Source: Talinum fruticosum (taxonomy: Eukaryota > Streptophyta > Magnoliopsida > Caryophyllales > Talinaceae). Taken from it: a stretch of 64,000 bases of DNA. The notes beneath the pieces were generated by a model that made no database searches, was not told where the DNA came from, and saw only the letters and a list, made by a program, of their open reading frames with translations. This document shows positions 2,413 to 58,469 of this stretch, piece by piece; within the stretch, counting starts at the first letter, position 1, and each line of letters opens with the position of its first letter. The position numbers were made by a program, and so were the translations under genes. The stretch covers positions 558,001-622,000 of the forward strand of contig JAITYX010000007.1 in assembly GCA_021018815.1 (NCBI GenBank), written 5' to 3'.

Positions 2413-3125
2413 ATGAAAATGTTATGTTGGAACCGTAGGGGTGTGGCAACCCTCTAGCAGTTCAAGTGCTCCAATTCTGGAGCAAAAACATAGCCTTGAC
2501 ATCATTTTCCTCTCTAAAATGATGTGAACAACTAGTAGGATGGAGTGACTCGAGTGTGAAATTTGGATTGAAAAATTCAGTTGTTGTTAATAGTAGAGGA
2601 CGATCGGGTGGCCTAATGATTTATTGGAGAGAAGAAGTTGATTTTGTACTTTGCTCTTGTACTCGACAATTACATACTCGGTCGACATAATGGAGGATGG
2701 AATGATAAAAATGAGATTCATGTGACTGTATGGATGGCCGAAAACCCAACAAAAATGAGAACTTGGTCCCTTCTTCGAGAACAGGTGGCTAACACTTCCA
2801 TCCCCATAGTGGTGGGTGGCGACTTCAATGAAATACTCTCCCTGGAGGAGAAGAACGGAGTTTTGGACCGTGAACAATGCTTAATGGATAACTTTCGGAT
2901 TGCACTTAATGATTGTAACTTAAGAGATCCGGGTTATCTTGGACAATGGCATACTTGGCTGCGAGGCAAACATGCTCATAGATGTATTAAAGAACGTCTA
3001 GATCGGTTCGTAGCAAATGATACTTGGAGCTCCTGTTTCCCTCATGCTTTTTGGTAGAAAATATGGTGCGTTATAAGTCCGATCACTCACTTATACTTCT
3101 CAATGTAGAGGGCTTGAGACAAACG
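2413..3125 (+). pseudogene. LINE ORF2: APE-like endonuclease domain remnant
   Basis: Starts with KMLCWNRRGVATL (compare the WNCRG start of plant L1 endonucleases) at about 2413. An open stretch from 2638 to 3055 carries IPIVVGGDFNEILSLEEK, the GDFN active-site motif, and then CIKERLDRFVAND, the (I)KERLDR motif. The final SDHSLILL histidine motif follows in another frame near 3078-3100. In the family this domain nicks target DNA to prime reverse transcription. The early part (2450-2640) is full of stops. Confidence 0.85.
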
Positions 3126-15900: not shown

Positions 15901-18900
15901 ACAAAAGAGTTGTACAAGGCCTTCAATAGCAAATTCATATTTCAGTGAGTGTAAACCAAACCCCCCGGGCCCCCATGGGGGAAACAAACACTAGTCACCA
16001 GACATTCTTCCCTAAGCAAAATCTTGTTCAAGTCACCTCTTAGGCGTCACGTAACCAACCCCTAGTTCCATAAGCTCCACATATAGCCTTAACTTCTCTC
16101 TGGATAAGGATAGCCTGCCATTTCCTTCATTACATTGATTATCTGCTTGCACACTAGTTATTTGTCCTTCTTGTTCTTTCATTTCAATGAAAGATCCAGA
16201 CAAGGATGAGTTTCCTATAGTTTTATAAGCAAGCACCAATTAATTTTTATGGGTGTGCACTCTGCAATTTAAAACTTTTTAAGAATTTTTACACAGATTT
16301 TTGGATAACTTTTTCATTCACAGTTTTCCAAGATGCCGTCCTGAATAGTGCATGTCCGCCACAGAAAAACAAAAGCATCAGGTGACTGCTCATGCCAGTT
16401 TTACTATAAATATCACCACTTCTGTTTCTTGAACAAAAAGAAGTGCTAGTGCAAAGGATATTTACAACAGCATTTAATTTTAAGTTACAAACAATGGTTC
16501 TTCCAAGTCATCAACTGTAATGGCCCACACAATGCTACCTTCACAGAAGTAAAATATAAAGCAGTTGGTACAAAGGATAATTACTTTAACCACTGACACT
16601 TAAGCCATACACTAGAGGCATAACATCAATGCAAATAAGCATTAAAATCAATGCAATTAGGCATACATCAACAGCTCTAACGACAAATTATGGAGCCATT
16701 TGGGTTACGGCAATGAGAAATGCCTCCTCAAGATGGACAGGGCAAGGGAATGACTTGTCATTTGTTTTCATTTCAATTACTCCCCAGTATTATGCATCTC
16801 CATTGGATTCATCAGAATATGTCAAGATCAAAGAAGAGAAATTTGTTCCGACGATATGTGCATAGCCCCTCCAACATACTCACCATCTTAGAGCCTAAAA
16901 ACACTACTTCACCATCAGCAGCATCACCACCAACATAGAACACCTATTAACCGCTATCATTGCGATTCACCACTACCACTCTTAGTTCTAAAAGACATGA
17001 GGCACATCAAGGCGCATACGGTCCCAGATGAAAGGCGTAAGGAGAGGGGAACACATCAGGATGTGAGCCACACTTTTATGCAAAAATGTTTAGAAGTCTT
17101 TCATAAAGCATATTTTGTAGAAATAAATTACATAAATGCATCTAAAAAGTGCTTAGGTTCAATATAACTACTAAATACAACAAATAGCCTTAAAATACAT
17201 TATGTTGGTGTCATGGTTCCCCAAAACACATGTTTAAGGTACAAATCAAGTCCAAGAAAATATTAGAAATCAATTTTGCACTAACTCACATTCAGAATCG
17301 CCGATTGATAAACATGTAAACAATCTAGGATAAACAGGGGCAAGTACTGTGTACTATATAGCTCACTTTTCAGCTCACAAGAAAAGAAAGACAAGACAAG
17401 AAAGGTCACAGGTGTTCATCTAGGAGGGACCAAAAACAAAGAAATAATTAGATGGGGAGGGTTGTCGTACACTGCACAAGCCAGTACTAAATTTTCAGAC
17501 CCCAAGGGGGAAAATAAGAAAAAAAGGTAAAGGCCAAGAAAAAGTGGCTTGTATCATAAGCAAGGGCCACAAAAAAAGAAAAAGGGATCAAAGCCTCAAC
17601 TTCACACAAATAGAGACAGAACGGGGCCAAGAAAAACCCATACCCATACAGAGAAGATGAAATCAACGACAAGTAGTAGAGGAGAAGAAATAGAAGAACA
17701 TAGAGGAGGAAAAGAAGAAAACGAAGAGCAGAGAGGAGTTAGCAATGTCGAATGACGTTAGTAAGGCTAACAAAAAATCAGATTCGGGTCAATTCAGGTT
17801 TGGACGATCAGACAAAAACCTCATACCCGAACAATGTTTGGATTACTAATTCGGAAACTCTGACGAGATCTGGACTCGGCTGTCCAAATGTCTAAATTTG
17901 TTGTATGACAACTGGATCTTCTGATTGATATTATGTTTTTGGACTGAAAGCGAACCCATTTTTTAACGTCCGAACCTGGTTGACCGGATTTTTAACATAT
18001 ATTTTTGGAGATTTTGTACCAAAAATATTTCATATCTAGTTGTCGGATGTCCGAACCCGAATTAGTTCACAAATCCACACAACCCAAACCCGAATGCCTC
18101 GATCCAAACCCGACCTGGTTATCAACCTGTATATGACCAATTGTTCGAGTTTTAATTTCAGAGAAAAAAATCAGACCCAATACTTTCTAAGTCGAACAAA
18201 TTTTTGCCAGTCTTATGCTAGAGTAAGGTGGATGGAGGATAGACCCATGCATACACACCATACATATCAAACATGTCAACAACAATCTAATATGCAATGA
18301 CTTTAATGGTAACTACGCACCAATATTTGCAGCAAGATGCTAGCGGAGAACATAAAAGCAAGCCCACCAAGCCTGCAAATTTAGCCAAGTTTTGTTAGGT
18401 TCTACATATCAACCAAAAGATAACGAAAGCAGAAAAGCCTTCAATGTCATGGAACTTACACTGAAGGAGCAAAAGCCGACGAACAGAAAGCCCAGCGACA
18501 CACCGTATGCACAATGGGCAATATTAGTAAAGCGCATCACCAACAATAAAAGGCCAATACAGTTAACACTATGAAGACAAAATTAAATTCATTCAGCAGT
18601 TAATTTGCTAATCCAAGCATTTTTGTTATTATTAGTTTCATGAAGACTAAGAAAATGATCAAAAGGGGGCAGAGCATGACCTCATGAGGCACCAACAGGG
18701 TCTGGGACTAAGCAAGCACAAAGTAGTCCATTTTATCTTCCCACACACATACGACAATTTCCTAAGTTAGTCTCAATTTTAAGATGGCGAGAAAAGAAGA
18801 CAAAGGAAGAAAGCGGGAAAGCATTAGACATTTCTAGTGTTTTGTCTAATTAGGGGTTAGGGAGAAACTATAAGTATTCTTTTTTAACCGCTTGCAGCAA

Positions 18901-19591
18901 CTCCAACTAACTATGATGCAATGCAATACTTGCGAATTGGCGAAAAAAAGGGGGACATTATGCCTAACTCAGGGGCAGAAATTGCTTTCGAGGAACAAAT
19001 ATTTATCAGCAATATTCTACCAGGTCGATTATTCTGGAGGAATACACGGGAAGAAATCTCTCTAGCCCCTATCATCGAGATCTATTTCTACCAAGTAAGC
19101 TCCTTGATTAGGTTTGTTCTGCCATTGGTTACCTGTGGAACACTTTGTAGAGATGACTATCAGTTGATGTGTTATCGGTCTATCTTCCTGCAGCCCTCCG
19201 ATTTCTTACTATATTGATGCCCTAAAGAAATCTTCGGATGAAAAGATATTCACCTCAGCCCAGGACCAACTTGCTTTTTCAACTTGCCCTTTCCCAATTT
19301 TTAACAACCACTTAAAGTTTGATTGACAAAACCCCAGAAAATCAGAAACACAAGAACCCAACAAGCTTTGGCACAATCCCACCTCCCCCAATCCCAAACA
19401 CATCACCCTAGAAACTGGGTTTCATTAAAAAAAAAAAAAAAAGGTCGAAATTGAAATGCTAACAAAGATTATTTTGTACAAATTGGGAAAAATTATAACG
19501 AGTTTGCTATAAGAGAGATCATATTCAAGATAGCAAGAATCAAACAAAGAGGAAATGGAAAGAAAACCGCACCTTCAAAGGTCATCGCCAT
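9930..19591 (-). CDS. VPS55/LEPROT-family endosomal membrane protein (vacuolar protein sorting 55 homolog)
   Basis: Reads as 126 residues from six minus-strand parts: 19591-19573 (19 nt), 18460 (1 nt), 18372-18321 (52), 12604-12565 (40), 12477-12393 (85), 10113-9930 (184, stop at 9932-9930); the sum, 381 nt, is 127 codons. All splice sites are GT/AG: donors GTGCGG, GTAAGT, GTGCGT, GTATGC, GTAAGT; acceptors CTTCAG, TTTGCAG, TAACAG, TTGTAG, TTTGCAG. Two introns are 87 nt, one is 5.7 kb. The protein has four hydrophobic segments: LAFMFSASILLQIL near residue 10; LMYVLVPMPCLFFGGG near 40, after the YGNWWPML motif; LTGASAVGSIAIPMIL near 75; and FFIFVCTVLCF near 107, ending LDDEW. Vps55 proteins act in endosome-to-vacuole sorting, in yeast with Vps68. 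I am sure of the family; the first 7 residues depend on the 1-nt exon. Confidence 0.88.
10185..10325 (+). mobile_element. tRNA-derived SINE in an intron of the VPS55-like gene
   Basis: The head resembles a tRNA with polymerase III promoter boxes: an A-box-like TCTAGTAGTTAAGA (about 10202-10215) and a B-box-like CGTTCAATCCCC (about 10243-10254). The spacing and the sentence-like order (TCTAGTAGTTAAGACTAAG ... GAAATCTCACGTTCAATCC) match plant SINE heads. The unit seems to end in an A-rich stretch near 10310-10325. No clear target duplication was found. It lies antisense to the host gene. Confidence 0.5.
10940..11950 (-). mobile_element. RTE-clade LINE, 3' portion, in intron of the VPS55-like gene
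   Basis: Minus-strand frames give the C-terminal end of an RTE-type reverse transcriptase: LVGPALLYGLECWPIKK, then EMRMIKWMCSYMRFDRVRN, VIREKVGVATIEDKMGEARL, and in another frame INLLDCKRSRERPQK and DMAEDRSLW, the usual end of these proteins. Downstream on minus the 3' end resembles the plant RTE tail (CCTTGCCTACTTCTGGATC ... CTCAGACCCCGTAAAAGCAG) and finishes in a GTT repeat (about 10952-10938). The element is 5'-truncated at about 11950 and lies in the same orientation as the host gene. Frame breaks show it is dead. Confidence 0.8.
12605..18320 (-). other. Large intron of the VPS55-like gene
   Basis: A 5.7-kb intron between the 52-nt and 40-nt coding exons. I found no conserved coding sequence in it; the open frames are short and unlike known proteins. 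Content noted: a homopolymer-rich stretch near 13540-13560, a GC palindrome (CCCCCGGGCCCCCATGGGGG, about 15962-15981), and a degenerate CCGAACCCGAA-type stretch (about 17790-18110) related in motif to the array at 29790. Several AT-rich blocks are probably old unclassifiable transposon debris. Confidence 0.6.
18460..18460 (-). other. Candidate one-nucleotide microexon of the VPS55-like gene
   Basis: On minus, the pyrimidine-rich CTTTTGCTCCTTCAG is followed by a single T and then GTAAGTTCC, so one base is flanked by a strong acceptor and a perfect donor. Exon 1 ends in phase 1 (GAA G) and the 52-nt exon begins with the third base of a codon (G CTT GGT GGG). Adding T gives GTG (Val), and the frame continues into the conserved LGGLAFMFSASILLQIL segment. 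In the frame needed at the donor, the upstream sequence meets a TGA (18538-18536) with no intervening AG, so a longer exon at this donor is excluded. The downstream intron is then 87 nt. The alternative is a ratchet (recursive) splice site, or a missed exon elsewhere. Confidence 0.6.
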
Positions 19592-19800
19592 GATTGCTGA
19601 AGTTCGAATTCCAGGTAGGAGAGAGAGACAGATGATCAGGTGCTTAATTGCACGAATTCGATAAAAATAACTGAATTCAATCGAAGGAAAGCGGGTGACT
19701 TCAGAGAGGGACTATTCTTGTGTGATGAGATTATTATTGTGTAGTGAGAAACACAACAGAGCGATCAAGCTTCACAAAAGATGCGTTTGGACTTCTGACC
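19592..19800 (-). promoter_or_regulatory. 5' leader / proximal promoter of the VPS55-like gene
   Basis: Upstream of the proposed ATG (AGCAATCATGGCG, a good plant start context with G at +4) the minus strand has a CT-rich leader (CTGTCTCTCTCTCC, about 19636-19623). I see no convincing TATA box within 200 bases. The extent is a guess from base composition. Confidence 0.35.
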
Positions 19801-22430
19801 ATAAAAAATGTTATTCTATGCGTTCTCGTGGTGCTAAATATTGCTCAGATTTTAAAATGTCATTTTTTATGGTTAATAATTAATCTAATTAATATTTAAA
19901 AAAATAATTTAGTAGTAATTATTGATCATTAAATTAATTATGATATGTTTTATATTTTGAGATAATTTAGTGACATTTTAATCCGAAGCACTATGGTGTT
20001 AAAAGAGTTATTGTGAATATCTAATAGTTTTTTTGTAAGGCTTTTTAAAAACACTCGATTTTATAAGGATTATAAGATAATTTTTTAATTTAAGAATTAC
20101 CGACAGTTCATCCAGTGGTTACTTTTATTATAGTCACTCCTCAACAAATAATTAATAACATCAATTATATTAACAAAAACTATAAAAAACATATGTATGA
20201 CACGTCCTATGTGAGATGGTCTCATATAAATTTTTTTAAAAAATGATGGTGAATATTGATGTTAAAAAAGGAAAAACAATCAAACTAAATATAATTTGAT
20301 AAAAATATCAAATAATAAGAAATAAATAAAGACATAATCTTAATTTTTTTAATAAAATTGTTAAGGTCATGAAACAACAAATATTCAATTAACGTAAATA
20401 TACCTATTTGACAAAAGGCCTAGTCTCTAGGGGCTTGGTTGTGGTTTGTCAACACTCAAACCATGTTCAACCACTCTTTCCATAAAAAATCTACGTTCAA
20501 GCACTCTCACTCACATTCAAGCACTCTCACCCATATTCAGTCACTCTCACCCATATTTAATCAATCATTCTATAAAAATCCACTATTGTCCATACTTTAC
20601 ATTCAACTACTATTATCCACTCTTACCCTGAACCACATCTCATTTTAATCACTCATCTTCGACAAAAATGTCCACTGGAGGTGCTAATTGACTTTGTCAT
20701 TTTTCCCTAACTTAGTTGAAGCAACTTGGTGCATGTTTACATAAGTTTCAACTTCTAAAAAATTACTTTTTAAAAGTACTTTTGAAAAAGTCACTTATCT
20801 AGAAATTATGAGATGTTTGGCAATCTAGTTATAGAAGTGCCCATAAGACGTAGAAACACTTAAACATATGTTTGGCAATTTCTCTGTCCTTGAGCTTCTA
20901 AAATCTATATTTTAAAAAATAAAAATAAAAAATGTACGAAGGAAAGGAACTAAAGAAGTGTAATTATACTTTGTTGAGAAACCTTATGATTCAAAGACCA
21001 TTTTGGTTTTCTAAATCAAATGTGAAATTAACAATTTACTTATAATTACGAAAAAAGAATTAAAATTAGTAAAATATACCAGTTAGTTAGAGGGTGTCAC
21101 AACACCAACTTTTCAGCAATAGAAAAGAAACAAGATGAATATTAGAAGAATTTGGTCACTAATTAAATGGATTGGCTTTAACTTATTCATTCAAGAATCA
21201 AACATGTGGAGCATATAAAAGTAAAGAGAAGTATGAATGATATACATAGATGAAAGTGGAGCGAAAGAAATTTGTTTATAGTTAGTTTGTTGTTGAGAAA
21301 AAATTACTATAGGATTGATGAGAGAACTTATTGATAAATAATAATGGTGATGGAAGACAAGAAAAGTAGTAGATATCAAACTAAACATTGAGGTTGTTGA
21401 GATAAGTGAAACTTTGGAGAAAATAATTATATACTTTATAGTGGGATGACCATTATTAAAAACATAATACAAGAAAATTTTAGTCAAGGTATTGAATTCA
21501 TTAATTTAAAAAAGTGAATACCCGATAATTAGAAATGGAAGATACAAATTGTAGCTTCAACTTTTTATATATCTTGGAGTTGTTTTGAGATTCTTAGGAG
21601 TGAGAAACCACAATAATTAAAATTAATGTTTTTCCTACTTCAGCTTTTTGATGGATAAGCATTTGGAGAAGTTAGGCCAAATGGATACTTAGCTTCCTTA
21701 ACAACTACAAAATTTAACCCAAATTGTAACTTTATACCTCCTAACTCGCAATACTTTATTAAACAAAGAGAAGTCCTTACAATCAACTACACTATCCACA
21801 TACCAATTTCCATGCCCTTCTAAGACCACTCCTTCCACGCACTGAAACACATGAGAAGAAACCAATATTGAAAGGTAGAAGAAATGAGAAATGTAACGAG
21901 AAACAATGAACGATGAATCTACCTTTCATTCTAAAACAAACTTGCCCTTATCTTCTTTCTTAAAAAACTCATCCGTTCTCATTAAGGGTAATTTAGTCAT
22001 TCTTACTCGACATAAATCTTGCAATCTAAAAAGCATGTTAGCAATTACGCCACACAAAATAACACCTACTTGGAAAAAAAACTCCTTTTCTAGTTGAAAA
22101 GAAACTAAAATAACACTTATTGATTAATTTTTTTATATCTTTATATTTCAAAAATTGAGGAAGGCATTTTACTACTCATGCAAGGAATGACAATCTTAGT
22201 ACTCTGGGGGCAAAATGGGTATATGAAAACTTAAAAGCAAAACTGAAAAGGAAGTGCAAAAGGGTAGCTTGGTAATTGTTCAAATGTCTTGTGGCACACA
22301 TTACTGTTCCATTGAATAGTAATTTATAAGGCAATTTATGTCATTTTTCTCTTTTGTGAGATATTGGGAGGTCTTTTTTGTAAATGTCTTTTCTGTTAAT
22401 ATGAGTGGATTTTTCGTTGTCGTTGGACCT
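19800..22430. other. Intergenic AT-rich stretch with MITE-like debris
   Basis: No gene is visible. Around 20480-20570 there are imperfect copies of TTCAAGCACTCTCAC(C/T)CA. Near 20200-20225 GTGAGATGGTCTCAT is a near-palindrome common in plant MITEs. From about 20705 to 21695 the two ends are loosely inverse (GTGCATGTTTACATAAGTTT and AGTATCCATTTGGCCTAACTTCT on the opposite strand), suggesting an old hAT-like non-autonomous element with no coding content. I cannot fix borders or duplications. Confidence 0.4.
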
Positions 22431-43308: not shown

Positions 43309-44699
43309 GGGCCCAAGGGTGGCAGTTGGGTTACATACAAGGATTATCAAGAAATCAGCTAGCAAGAATAGAAAGCAACAAGAAAATGGACGAACAAAAG
43401 TGAATACAAGAGGCAGGCGAGTGGTCCGAGGCTATGGGCATGACCGGAATGTAAAAAATGTGGCAAAAAGCTCTTTTAAGCCTATTTTGGAGCAAGTTTT
43501 GAGAATAGAAGCAACATACTGAGTTGACACGATTAAAGGCTGATCTCAAAAATCCTATTTCATGTATCTTGGTTTGCTCAAGATAAATTCTATCCCATGG
43601 CACGGATGCCTGGAAAGGCAGTGTCGATTTGTCCAACCTGGAGAGAGAGAAGTGAAAAGTATTCATATAGCCATGACTACTTTTTGACAAGTCAAGTAAG
43701 TCTTTTTATTCACATAAGATGAAAAGTACATATTGAAGAAAGGAATAATTTGAGCATACCTCAATGATCTTCCATAAGCCATTTAAAGGAAGATATTTGG
43801 TGGAATCCGGTTCCGGTCTTGTGTGCCACACACCGGCACGAAGGCCCCTAATGAGGCAAATATATGTGGGAGCACCCCAGTTGAGCTCCTTTACTCTATC
43901 AAGATCTACTAGGTTCACCAAATAGTGAACATGAATCTTAACGACTGATCGGAGAAGAGGATTGTGCTCAAAAGAAGAGCAAACACGACCCTTACTTGAT
44001 GTTGAGGAGAATGTTTAGACCATAAATCTTCATCCTCAAAAGCCTAAAAAGAATGGTATATTTGAAGTGGTTATTATATGGAAATCTCTCTGCTACGAGA
44101 TTAAAAAGGTGATGGAGGTAATTACGATTTTTGTATAAATTCCGGTCATAAGCTAAAGGTTCCCTTGAAAGGCCTAGACCGGATAAAACAGCAAACTCAA
44201 AGGGAGTTATCGTCATCTCACCAAAGGGAAGATGGAGCGTGTTGGTGGTATCCCAAAATCGCTCACCGATGGCTCTAATAGGATTTTTCTCCCTCCTATT
44301 AACGAGATGGCATAAAGCGATGTAGAGAGGTCCGAACCCAAGCATTGTACATGACATTCTCGAGAGGAAAGTGTATCATCTCGCATGTCTCCATAAACTT
44401 TAGGATGACTCCACTGCTTCAAATTAAGCCTTTCTACAAAACAAAATCCAACAAGATTTTAGTTAAAACTTTACTCTAAATGAGCAAATTAAGAGGTTTA
44501 AGCTAATTAGCTTACCAAAGAGAAATGGCAATTGAAGAAATGTGGGTTTCGGTTTCAACCAGTAGATCACTTGGATTCCATTCATTTTGCGGATGCCATT
44601 CATGCTCAAGGAAAGAGTCTTGAGTAAGACTCTCAGCTCTATTTCTTCCTGCAGGGTGAGCTTTTTTTCCGGGTATTTTGAAGGCAAGAAATTCTTGAG

Positions 44700-47729: not shown

Positions 47730-48343
47730 AAACAAAATTGATCTTCACTCGGAGGTTTTGTGAAAATATCGCCTAATTGAAATTTTGTAGGAAGAAACTC
47801 AAGTACAATATCACCTTTTTAGAGTGGTCTCTCGGAAAATGATGGCACTTTGATTATCATACTTGATTGGGATAGATGTAAATGACAATCCTAGATCCTT
47901 CAAGTGTTGCTTGATCCATAAAATCTAAGCACAGGAGGCTCTAGCTACTATGTACTCGCCTCGGCTATTGATAGAGCAACCGAATTTTGCTTCTTTGAGT
48001 GCCAGGAGATGAGTGATTGACCCAGAAATTGACATGCTCCTAAGGTGCTCTTTCTATCAACCTTGTATCCAACATAGTCAACATCTAAGTATCTAGTGAG
48101 AGTCAGACTTGAGTCCTTTGAATACCGGAGACCGAGTGTCCGAGTTCCTACAACATATCTAAAAATTCTCTTAACCGTAGTGAGATGTGATTCTTTTGGA
48201 TTAGCTTGAAATCTCGCACAAAGACAGAAACTAAACATAATATTTGGCCTACTAGATGTAAGATAAAGTAGAGATTCAATCATACCTCTGTAGAGTTTAT
48301 GATCCACAGACTTGTTCACCTTGTTGATTTTCTTCATTAGCAT
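47730..48343 (-). pseudogene. Copia RT C-terminal end and RNase H domain
   Basis: Open on minus from 48343 to 47948 with SVDHKLYRGMIESLLYLTSS, RPNIMFSFCLCARFQANPK, RTLGLRYSKDSSLTLTRYLD and CQFLGQSLISWHSKKQNSVA, the end of reverse transcriptase and the Ty1 RNase H. The terminal piece LPTKFQLGDIFTKPPSEDQF (about 47790-47731) follows after a frame break. The Asp/Glu pattern is mostly there (DVDYVGYKVDRKST; the usual DxDWAG has Tyr-Val). The catalytic YVDD part is not in the window. Confidence 0.88.
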
Positions 48344-49730
48344 GATCTTTAGTAGTCCGAGCTGGTTCTTGAACTAACTTATTCCGAGTTGGCTCAGCTC
48401 CTTTGTTTTTGTTCATTCCGAGCTCAGCCTCTGCTATATCATCTTCATCTTGATTGAGCTTGAGATATGAGAAAGTGGATTCACTTATCCTGCCATGATC
48501 AATTTCATCAAAGATAACGTGGATACTTTCTTCCACTTTGTTAGTTCTCTTGTTAAAGATTCTATAAGCTTTGCTATGTGAAGAAAAACCAAGAAAAATA
48601 CCTTCATCCGACCTTGCATCAAATTTAGTAAGATGTTCCTTACCATTGTTATTCACAAAGCATTTACATCCGAATGGTTTGAAGTAGGAAATGTTAGGCT
48701 TCTTCCCTTTGTGTAGCTCATAGAGTGTCTTGTTTAGAATGGGTCGAATGAGGCATCTGTTGAGAGTGTAATTTGATGTGTTCACTACCTCGGTTCGAAA
48801 AAGTAAGGTAGATAATTTTCAATCATCATTGTCCTTCCTATTTCTTCAAGTGTCCTGTTATTTCTCTCCACTACTCCATTCTCGTTGAGAAGTTCTTAGC
48901 GCCGAGAAGTTGAGGGAGATGCCATTCTTGTCATAGAAGTCGACAAATTTTTAGTAATCGAACTCTCTTCCACCTGTCACTTCGAATTCTCCTTATCCGA
49001 GTCTCAAACTCTACTTGTATTTTTCTCGCAAATCTTAATGAACTCTTTGAAAGCGTCATTTTTGTTCTTCAGAAATCACACCCAGGTAAATCGTGAGTAA
49101 CCATCAATAATAACTTGTATGTAAGATTTACCTCATAATCTTTTAACAGAATTTCACCATACAAATCCATATGTATCAATTCAAGCAATTTGGATGTACA
49201 TAATGTCTTGAATGGCTTAAAGGAATTTCCTTTTATGCAAGCATCACAGATTTTATCTTTCTTAAATGAACAATTAGACAATCCTCCGACTAATCCATGA
49301 GATGCAAGTTTGTTAATAGTATGCATGCCAATATGGCATAATCTACGATGCCATGTCCATAAATCATCATTTAGAGAAGCTTTTAACCAAGATAAATCTT
49401 GATTTGAATAAGAAAGAGGGATAGTGTAGGTGTTACTTGACCTCGGACTTGAAAGCTTTGTCTCTTTGGTAGTTGCATAAGAAATGAAGCAGTTGGTTTG
49501 AGTGAACCTTACCAGAGATACTAAGAAGATTATACATGAGTCCTTTGACAAGATATACTTGGACGAACTAAGTTGTCTCCTTGACCAATTTTATCAATTC
49601 GAACTATCTTGTCCGTATTATTATCTCCAAATGTGACCTTTCCTCCTTTTAATTCTTCCAATTCGAGAAGAGTCTTGAATCTCCGGACATATGGCGTGAG
49701 CATCCACTGTCTAAGTACCAATGACCTTTT
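48297..49730 (-). pseudogene. Copia GAG-pre-integrase and integrase region
   Basis: On minus, 49551-49069 reads DLWTWHRRLCHIGMHTINKL and KDKICDACIKGNSFKPFKT: the HHCC zinc-binding segment (H...H...C..C) of the integrase N-terminus, intact here. ELIHMDLYGEI follows with the first integrase Asp. The catalytic core is frame-broken between 49060 and 48790. 48785-48297 carries the integrase end, LNKTLYELHKGKKPNISYFK, PFGCKCFVNN and DEGIFLGFSSHSKAYRIFNK. The frame then runs into the deletion junction near 48300-48345. Confidence 0.88.
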
Positions 49731-55899: not shown

Positions 55900-56851
55900 C
55901 CGGGTTGCCTCCTCCAAGCCCATCTATGCAAAAGACTCCCCTCCAGCTTGTGTTTCTTTAGTGTCTCTTTGGTCTCCACTAGGAAAATGGCGTTATTGAT
56001 TATGGGGTTGAGGTTGAAACCTTGATCCTTGAGTATTAACTCAATTGTTCCATACAACTCTTGGGCGGTTTGCTACCCGATGTCCGTATTCGCCACATCC
56101 AAAGCATGGGTCCGGGCTTACTTTACATGGTCCAGCATGATGGCGAAGACACTTTCCACAAAATTTTCTACCTTGGCCTCCCATTGGTTGCTTACATTTG
56201 AATTGTTGTCCCCAGGAGTAAATCTTTGTGCAATACCGTCACCTTAAGAACTAGAACCGTCCGAGTAAAATTTTCCTTGAGCTAGAGTTTTATCTCTTTT
56301 ACGAGCTTCACTTTCATCAATTACTCTTGCAATTTTAACTGCCCTTCGATACATATCCTAAAAATTGACAAAGGTATGTCGTGTTATTTTCTCCTTTATT
56401 TTTCCCTTTAGCCCATGCTTGAAGTGATCCATTCTCATTTCTTCTGTTGCCACTTAGGCGGGAGGAAAACGACTAAGTTCAAATTTTCCAACATATTCCA
56501 TGACACTTATGGTTTGTCCCTACCTTAGCTGGAGGAATTCTTGTTCTTTTGTCCATTTTACATATCTAGGATAGTACTTTGCATCCATCAAGGCTTTTAG
56601 TTGCACCCAGGTCAAAGGCATCTCCCCTTCTCTTGGTTTTACGGTTCCCCACCGGTATTCCGCTTCTCGGCCAAGCCGATAGGTGGCCAGCCATATCTTA
56701 ACTCTCTCAGGACATTCCATTATTTCAAATAAGTTCTCTATCTTCCTCAACCATTCCTCATAAGTGAATGGGTCTGACCCTCCCTTAAATTTCGGAGGCT
56801 TCAACTTATTGAACATACATATTATTTCCATTGTGGTGGGCTCAACTATAT
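55900..56851 (-). pseudogene. Gypsy gag (Retrotrans_gag) remnant
   Basis: On minus, 56810-56520 is open: FNKLKPPKFKGGSDPFTYEE, WLRKIENLFEIMECPERVKI, LATYRLGREAEYRWGTVKPR and YYPRYVKWTKEQEFLQLR, the retrotransposon gag domain (LxPPxFxG...W...E..F.......R..LA...L...A..WW). The second Trp of the usual EYWW is Arg-Trp here. Downstream it continues in shifted frames (NMLENLNLVVF; RRAVKIARVIDE; KRDKTLAQGKF) to about 55900. Confidence 0.85.
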
Positions 56852-58469
56852 TTATACGACACGACATCTGTCCACAAATATATATGAACATATGGTCTCT
56901 CTTAACTTTTAACTTATGATGAGATTAACAAATGAACTTATTCGTTCACAATATATCGATGAGATGGCTAACTTCAATTAGCATGTATTTACCTCATATA
57001 CAACGTTACATATATCTAGAATGTCTATTCTAGCTTTATATAGCTACTTTACACTTATTTCAACCATTTAGAAATTCTAAAACTAGAAGTCACTCAAGAC
57101 ATGACATCTATCTTCCTTGACCACTAACACTAATTATAGATATATACATTTTTGTTCAAGTATTTGACATGTCTTTACACATACTCATTTATTACTCAAG
57201 CATGAACCTCATAATTCAGTATATGTAGTTAAAATCTATCTCATTTAGTTCATTTCTAGAGAGAGGACCACAAGATTAAGTTTTATTCACAATCTAGATT
57301 TGGTTCAATAGTTCGATGACTCTAGATGCAACCCCAAACTACAACAAATAACATCAACAAAATACTAAATCAAAAAATTAACACCACCCAATTACCACAA
57401 GTTTCAAAACTCATTTAAATCTCTATACTTTAATTTCACGCTTTTCTTCTACCCCTTAAACCTCAATTTCTCATTAAACTTAATTCAATAGTAATTCAGA
57501 GAAATTCATAAATCACAAGAATTTAATTCTCTTATGCCATAACAACTTCAAACCGCCACAACTAGTCACGGATCATCACAACTACTATCTAGCTCACTTT
57601 TTCATACTTGTCTCTAAACTTGTCAATTTTCCGATTCTATTTCACATGAGCCACAATAACCACAAACTATCCGAAACCGTTATGATTTAACTCAAATAGT
57701 CACAACTCATCATAAATTATTACATTCGATTCAAATTCACAAATGGCCTCTCTCTAACCTGTCAATTCACTAATTTTGTTCATACAAGCCAAAATAATCA
57801 CAAACACCATAATCACAAACGGTTACTATTCCCTATATTCGACCAAATTTCCGCAATTCCATCTATCTACCAATCAATGTACTGATTATGTTTCTCAATT
57901 TGAAGTTGCTCCAAGATTTAGCTCATTCCATAATTTCAAATAATCAAACAACTCAACATACTTCATAATGTAATTCAATCATATGGAGAATCAATTCATA
58001 GTTACACTAAAGTTATTACCTCCCATAATTTTGCAATGCTCAAGTATCCAAAACAAACTTTCACAACATACTAGGCACAAGGTTTTGCATGGCTCGAAAA
58101 CTATTGTACTCTACACTAATTTCACTCATTGCTTCTCTAAAAAGGACGACATGGTAGGTGTCCAATCCAAAAGGCATATATGTATAATCTTCCCAAGTAA
58201 ATGCCATTGCAAGTCAATACTTAAGGCATATAATTTACCTCACCTTATGACATATAAGTCACACACTTAGCACATGCAAGTTACTCGCATATCACCTTAA
58301 TGGGCAATTTACAATCAACTAATTAACGAAGTTAACTAGGTAATCACCTATGAGTTAAGTTTTACACTTAAAGCCACACGTGTACTTGTTACAAATAAAT
58401 CACATTACCATATAATGAGGGAACCTAGAAAACTATATGTAATGCAAACATAAGCTCACCAAAACCTAT

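Follow-up and report, generated by a model that had tools for sequence, protein, structure and literature searches.

A predicted one-nucleotide coding exon in a VPS55-like gene of Talinum fruticosum

A VPS55-like gene is encoded on the minus strand of the window, by which we mean the whole 64,000-nucleotide stretch of Talinum fruticosum DNA analysed here (assembly GCA_021018815.1, contig JAITYX010000007.1, positions 558,001 to 622,000), and a single T at window position 18460 almost certainly represents one of its coding exons, with inclusion in the mRNA predicted from the genomic sequence. A one-letter VPS55 exon is already known in land plants (Yu et al. 2022, PMC8831610). The suggestion in the initial annotation that such an exon would be new to this gene is therefore superseded, while its proposal that a one-nucleotide microexon is needed stands as the best reading, the same type of exon having been published for this gene family (PMC8831610).

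The minus strand was read from position 20500 to 7000 with downstream exons located through VPS55 peptide motifs, and the resulting scripted gene model extended from 19591 to 9930 and contained six exons. The coding part of exon 1 (19591-19573, 19 nt, ATGGCGATGACCTTTGAAG) ends in phase 1 at AAG/GTGCGG and is followed by an upstream intron of 1112 nt (18461..19572), the T at 18460 and a downstream intron of 87 nt (18373..18459) with a GTAAGT donor and a TTTGCAG acceptor. The remaining coding exons are of 52 nt (18372-18321), 40 nt (12604-12565), 85 nt (12477-12393) and 184 nt (10113-9930), the last including the TGA stop. All five introns (1112, 87, 5716, 87 and 2279 nt, the second of the 87-nt introns at 12564-12478) have GT-AG boundaries, and the joined coding sequence including T 18460 is 381 nt long with its stop, giving a protein of 126 amino acids in which one Val codon is distributed over three exons (G/T/G), with the T as its second base. 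Upstream of the exon 1 start an in-frame stop occurs at 19714, and the 209 nt preceding that start hold no ATG. Coordinates, phases, flanks and the equal length of the two 87-nt introns, as given in the initial annotation, were all found correct upon re-reading and in the scripted model. The 2279-nt intron also contains a broken sequence (11900-11300, minus strand) that by eye resembles the C-terminal portion of a reverse transcriptase of the LINE type.

The T is flanked by CTTTTGCTCCTTCAG and GTAAGTTCC and stands between CTCCTTCAG and GTAAGT. With the T included the frame remained open from exon 1 through to the VPS55 stop, as had been claimed for the 381-nt frame, and with the T skipped translation ended after 42 amino acids. 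Retention of the upstream intron gave a stop after 32 amino acids and retention of the downstream 87-nt intron a stop after only 7 (MAMTFEV), because an in-frame TAA lies within the GTAAGT donor itself (18459-18454, minus strand). Upstream of the T, the required frame is closed first by a TGA at 18539 and no ATG occurs between the two, while the AG preceding that of the T's acceptor begins at 18570. Since this AG lies beyond the in-frame TGA, a longer exon at the same GTAAGT donor is impossible, in agreement with the earlier observation, and among exons sharing this donor the T is the only one that restores the frame. The arrangement CAG/T/GTAAGT thus leaves exactly the single base between AG and GTRAGT that in-frame joining to exon 1 requires.

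Exon 1 and the 52-nt exon lie 1,200 nt apart, and within this gap GTRAGT occurs just once, as the GTAAGT that follows the T. This donor matches the GTAAGT consensus at 6/6 positions, as does the donor of the 85-nt exon, in comparison to 3/6 for the exon 1 donor (GTGCGG). The 20 nt before the AG of its acceptor contain 16 pyrimidines, the most of the gene's five acceptors (10, 10, 11 and 13 for the other four). This AG is separated from the previous AG by 108 nt; of 7,457 such spacings counted over the two strands, 33 were at least as long. Three features count against the T as an exon, namely that the base preceding the donor is T and not G, that the donor of exon 1 is weak (3/6) and that branch-point-like YTNAY motifs occur 68 and 64 nt before the T, so that the nearest is 64 nt away. 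The corresponding distances are 23 nt (52-nt exon), 24 nt (40-nt exon), 14 nt (85-nt exon) and 60 nt (last exon). The motif 23 nt ahead of the 52-nt exon reads CTAAC. These branch-point-like motifs and the donor scores are consensus matches and not mapped branch points.

Comparison with published plant microexons placed the locus within a known group. Yu et al. (2022, PMC8831610), in a survey of 132 genomes, described a conserved land-plant 1-nt VPS55 microexon with a GTRAGT donor, which in Arabidopsis AT3G11530 was confirmed by RNA-seq and RT-PCR. A section of that paper is titled '1-nt microexons of APC11 and VPS55', these being the two genes in which it describes conserved 1-nt microexons. 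From ferns onward one of two VPS55 copies carries the microexon, and in flowering plants it occurs in the VPS55-1 clade and is absent from VPS55-2, while in Selaginella, a hornwort and a liverwort it is present in one of two transcript forms (PMC8831610). The same paper reports that the microexon is usually unannotated, with the loss of 13 N-terminal residues in Arabidopsis, and that VPS55 has four transmembrane helices with it and three without it (PMC8831610). The Talinum exon resembles the VPS55-1 microexon in gene family, in being a nucleotide near the N-terminus, in its GTAAGT donor and in the 13 residues lost without it, and it showed no difference from the published description in the features compared (gene, donor, position and residue count; PMC8831610). 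Since the locus agrees in gene, donor and residue count, the T exon is likely the orthologue of the VPS55-1 clade microexon, an assignment drawn from gene structure, donor, residue count and the text of the paper (PMC8831610). The initial annotation had also pointed to a single-nucleotide exon in Arabidopsis APC11, and Guo and Liu (2015, PMC4674806) indeed described a constitutive 1-nt exon there. That exon is likewise a single coding nucleotide in an apparent first intron without which the frame is not maintained, but it belongs to an unrelated gene, its base is A and it lies 333 nt into an assigned intron of 422 nt, in comparison to the 1112 + 87 nt found here (PMC4674806). Recursive-splicing ratchet points, a feature of long introns, are mentioned as a model in the same report (PMC4674806).

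The handling of overlapping splice sites by the spliceosome is put to a stringent test by one-nucleotide exons. The two introns flanking the T are probably excised consecutively, since the machinery for GTAAGT and that for CAG cannot both fit around one nucleotide, and consecutive excision has been reported for plant microexons in general (PMC8831610). The 87-nt intron probably leaves first and the 1112-nt intron later, which is the better guess because the former has a 6/6 donor and the latter a weak one. At a ratchet point the acceptor AG directly abuts the donor GT and no base is left in the mRNA. The T resembles such points in that its acceptor lies almost immediately before a donor, but here one base separates AG and GT and the frame requires that it stay. 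The reversed order, in which the T acts mostly as a ratchet point and the upstream intron is cut first to place exon 1 and the T beside GTAAGT, appears unlikely, even though a long upstream intron of 1112 nt is here followed by a short one and the exon 1 and T so joined would adjoin a perfect donor. The weak donor of exon 1 speaks against it, as does the tendency of published plant microexons to lose the downstream intron first: among 69 constitutive plant microexons, 16 had downstream-only reads without upstream-only reads and 4 the reverse, and of the 49 with both kinds of reads 32 had more downstream reads (PMC8831610). The initial annotation had left the choice between a microexon and a ratchet point; our analysis favours the microexon, and as both routes yield the same mRNA the alternatives concern the order of splicing and not the exon itself.

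That this one-nucleotide exon is regulated in Talinum fruticosum, and not constitutive, seems very improbable. If it were regulated, delayed splicing around the T could switch full-length VPS55 on and off by way of the TAA in the donor.

The predicted 126-residue protein matched the Pfam Vps55 family (PF04133) over residues 10-120 with 112.4 bits, the cut-off being 24.6, which places it within the family. The earlier description of a frame matching VPS55 throughout therefore applies to residues 10-120, with residues 1-9, encoded by exon 1 and the T, outside the match; because the match begins at residue 10, it supports the frame of the 52-nt exon but says nothing about exon 1 or the T. A search of solved structures with the 126-residue protein returned no matches up to E = 1. 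By completing the Val codon, the T would keep residues 1-13 on the protein and with them the beginning of the first of three hydrophobic segments (2-31, 33-54 and 94-122 in a crude hydropathy scan). Without exon 1 and the T, the earliest Met available in frame is residue 14, encoded in the 52-nt exon, so that omission of the T would cost residues 1-13. It is highly improbable that the T goes unused and that a 113-residue protein starts at this Met14. Such a form would be in frame and still reached 107.3 bits with Pfam Vps55, and both the transcripts without the microexon in Selaginella, the hornwort and the liverwort and the VPS55-2 clade of flowering plants offer precedents for it (PMC8831610). 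However, the Pfam score dropped by about 5 bits and the first hydrophobic segment fell below threshold, leaving two segments in comparison to three in a crude scan that did not resolve all four helices. Since the needed frame upstream through the T lacks an ATG before the TGA, no other N-terminus is encoded there, and for flowering plants the form short of 13 residues is treated as a consequence of missing annotation (PMC8831610). The oversight of one-nucleotide exons by annotation pipelines leads to truncated proteins in this way, and the present locus is one more likely instance in a published conserved cluster, with its practical value lying in correct gene annotation.

The motif itself proves nothing, because AGNGTRAGT occurred twice in the window in comparison to a mean of 3.34 in 100 shuffles, with its second copy serving the 85-nt exon as donor, and YAGTGTAAGT, found once in the window, occurred at least once in 29/100 shuffles; it was rejected as standalone evidence. 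The arrangement became rare once the search was confined to the gap and both a maintained frame and good sites were demanded. Of 3,000 dinucleotide shuffles made from the 1,200-nt gap, 84 contained AGNGTRAGT, 34 contained an exon of 1-300 nt that restored the frame with a GTRAGT donor and an acceptor equally rich in pyrimidines, and a single one contained a 1-nt exon of this kind, its sites no worse than those observed. These quality thresholds were taken from the observed site and are thus biased in its favour. That the T is a chance match, and that the frame is restored instead by another exon of length 3n+1 or by an alternative first exon, is barely credible. When every AG was accepted as an acceptor and every GT or GC as a donor, 82 frame-restoring exons, the T among them, were found in the gap, so that 81 others suit the frame if site quality is ignored, and five single alternative first exons, using three donors with at least 5/6 matches, were found between 20200 and the 52-nt exon. 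However, with a GTRAGT donor, an acceptor of at least 16/20 pyrimidines and exons of up to 300 nt the T alone qualified, and by crude site scores none of the 81 equalled it at both ends. When spliced straight to the 52-nt exon, the five alternative first exons gave N-termini that looked unrelated by eye and were rejected, and the T has the donor and the residue count of the VPS55 microexon already published (PMC8831610).

Elsewhere in the window, a tRNA scan and an Rfam scan at gathering scores each returned no hits, and 15 open reading frames of at least 110 amino acids were present, 9 of which were run against Pfam. The open reading frame at 47948-48343 (minus strand), a third one in the Copia-like region given below, had no Pfam match. 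Two stretches gave weak scores that stayed under the cut-off, one (2638-3057, plus strand) for an endonuclease/exonuclease/phosphatase domain and the other (56520-56891, minus strand) for a retrotransposon gag domain, and both are probably transposon remnants. A fragment at 43992-44357 on the minus strand resembled the plant mobile domain (PMD), its 27 bits falling short of the 34.9 cut-off. Finally, the region 47948-49551 on the minus strand matched SH3_retrovirus (96.2 bits) and gag_pre-integrs (53.6 bits), both above cut-off, and contains pieces of what we take to be a Copia-type retrotransposon.
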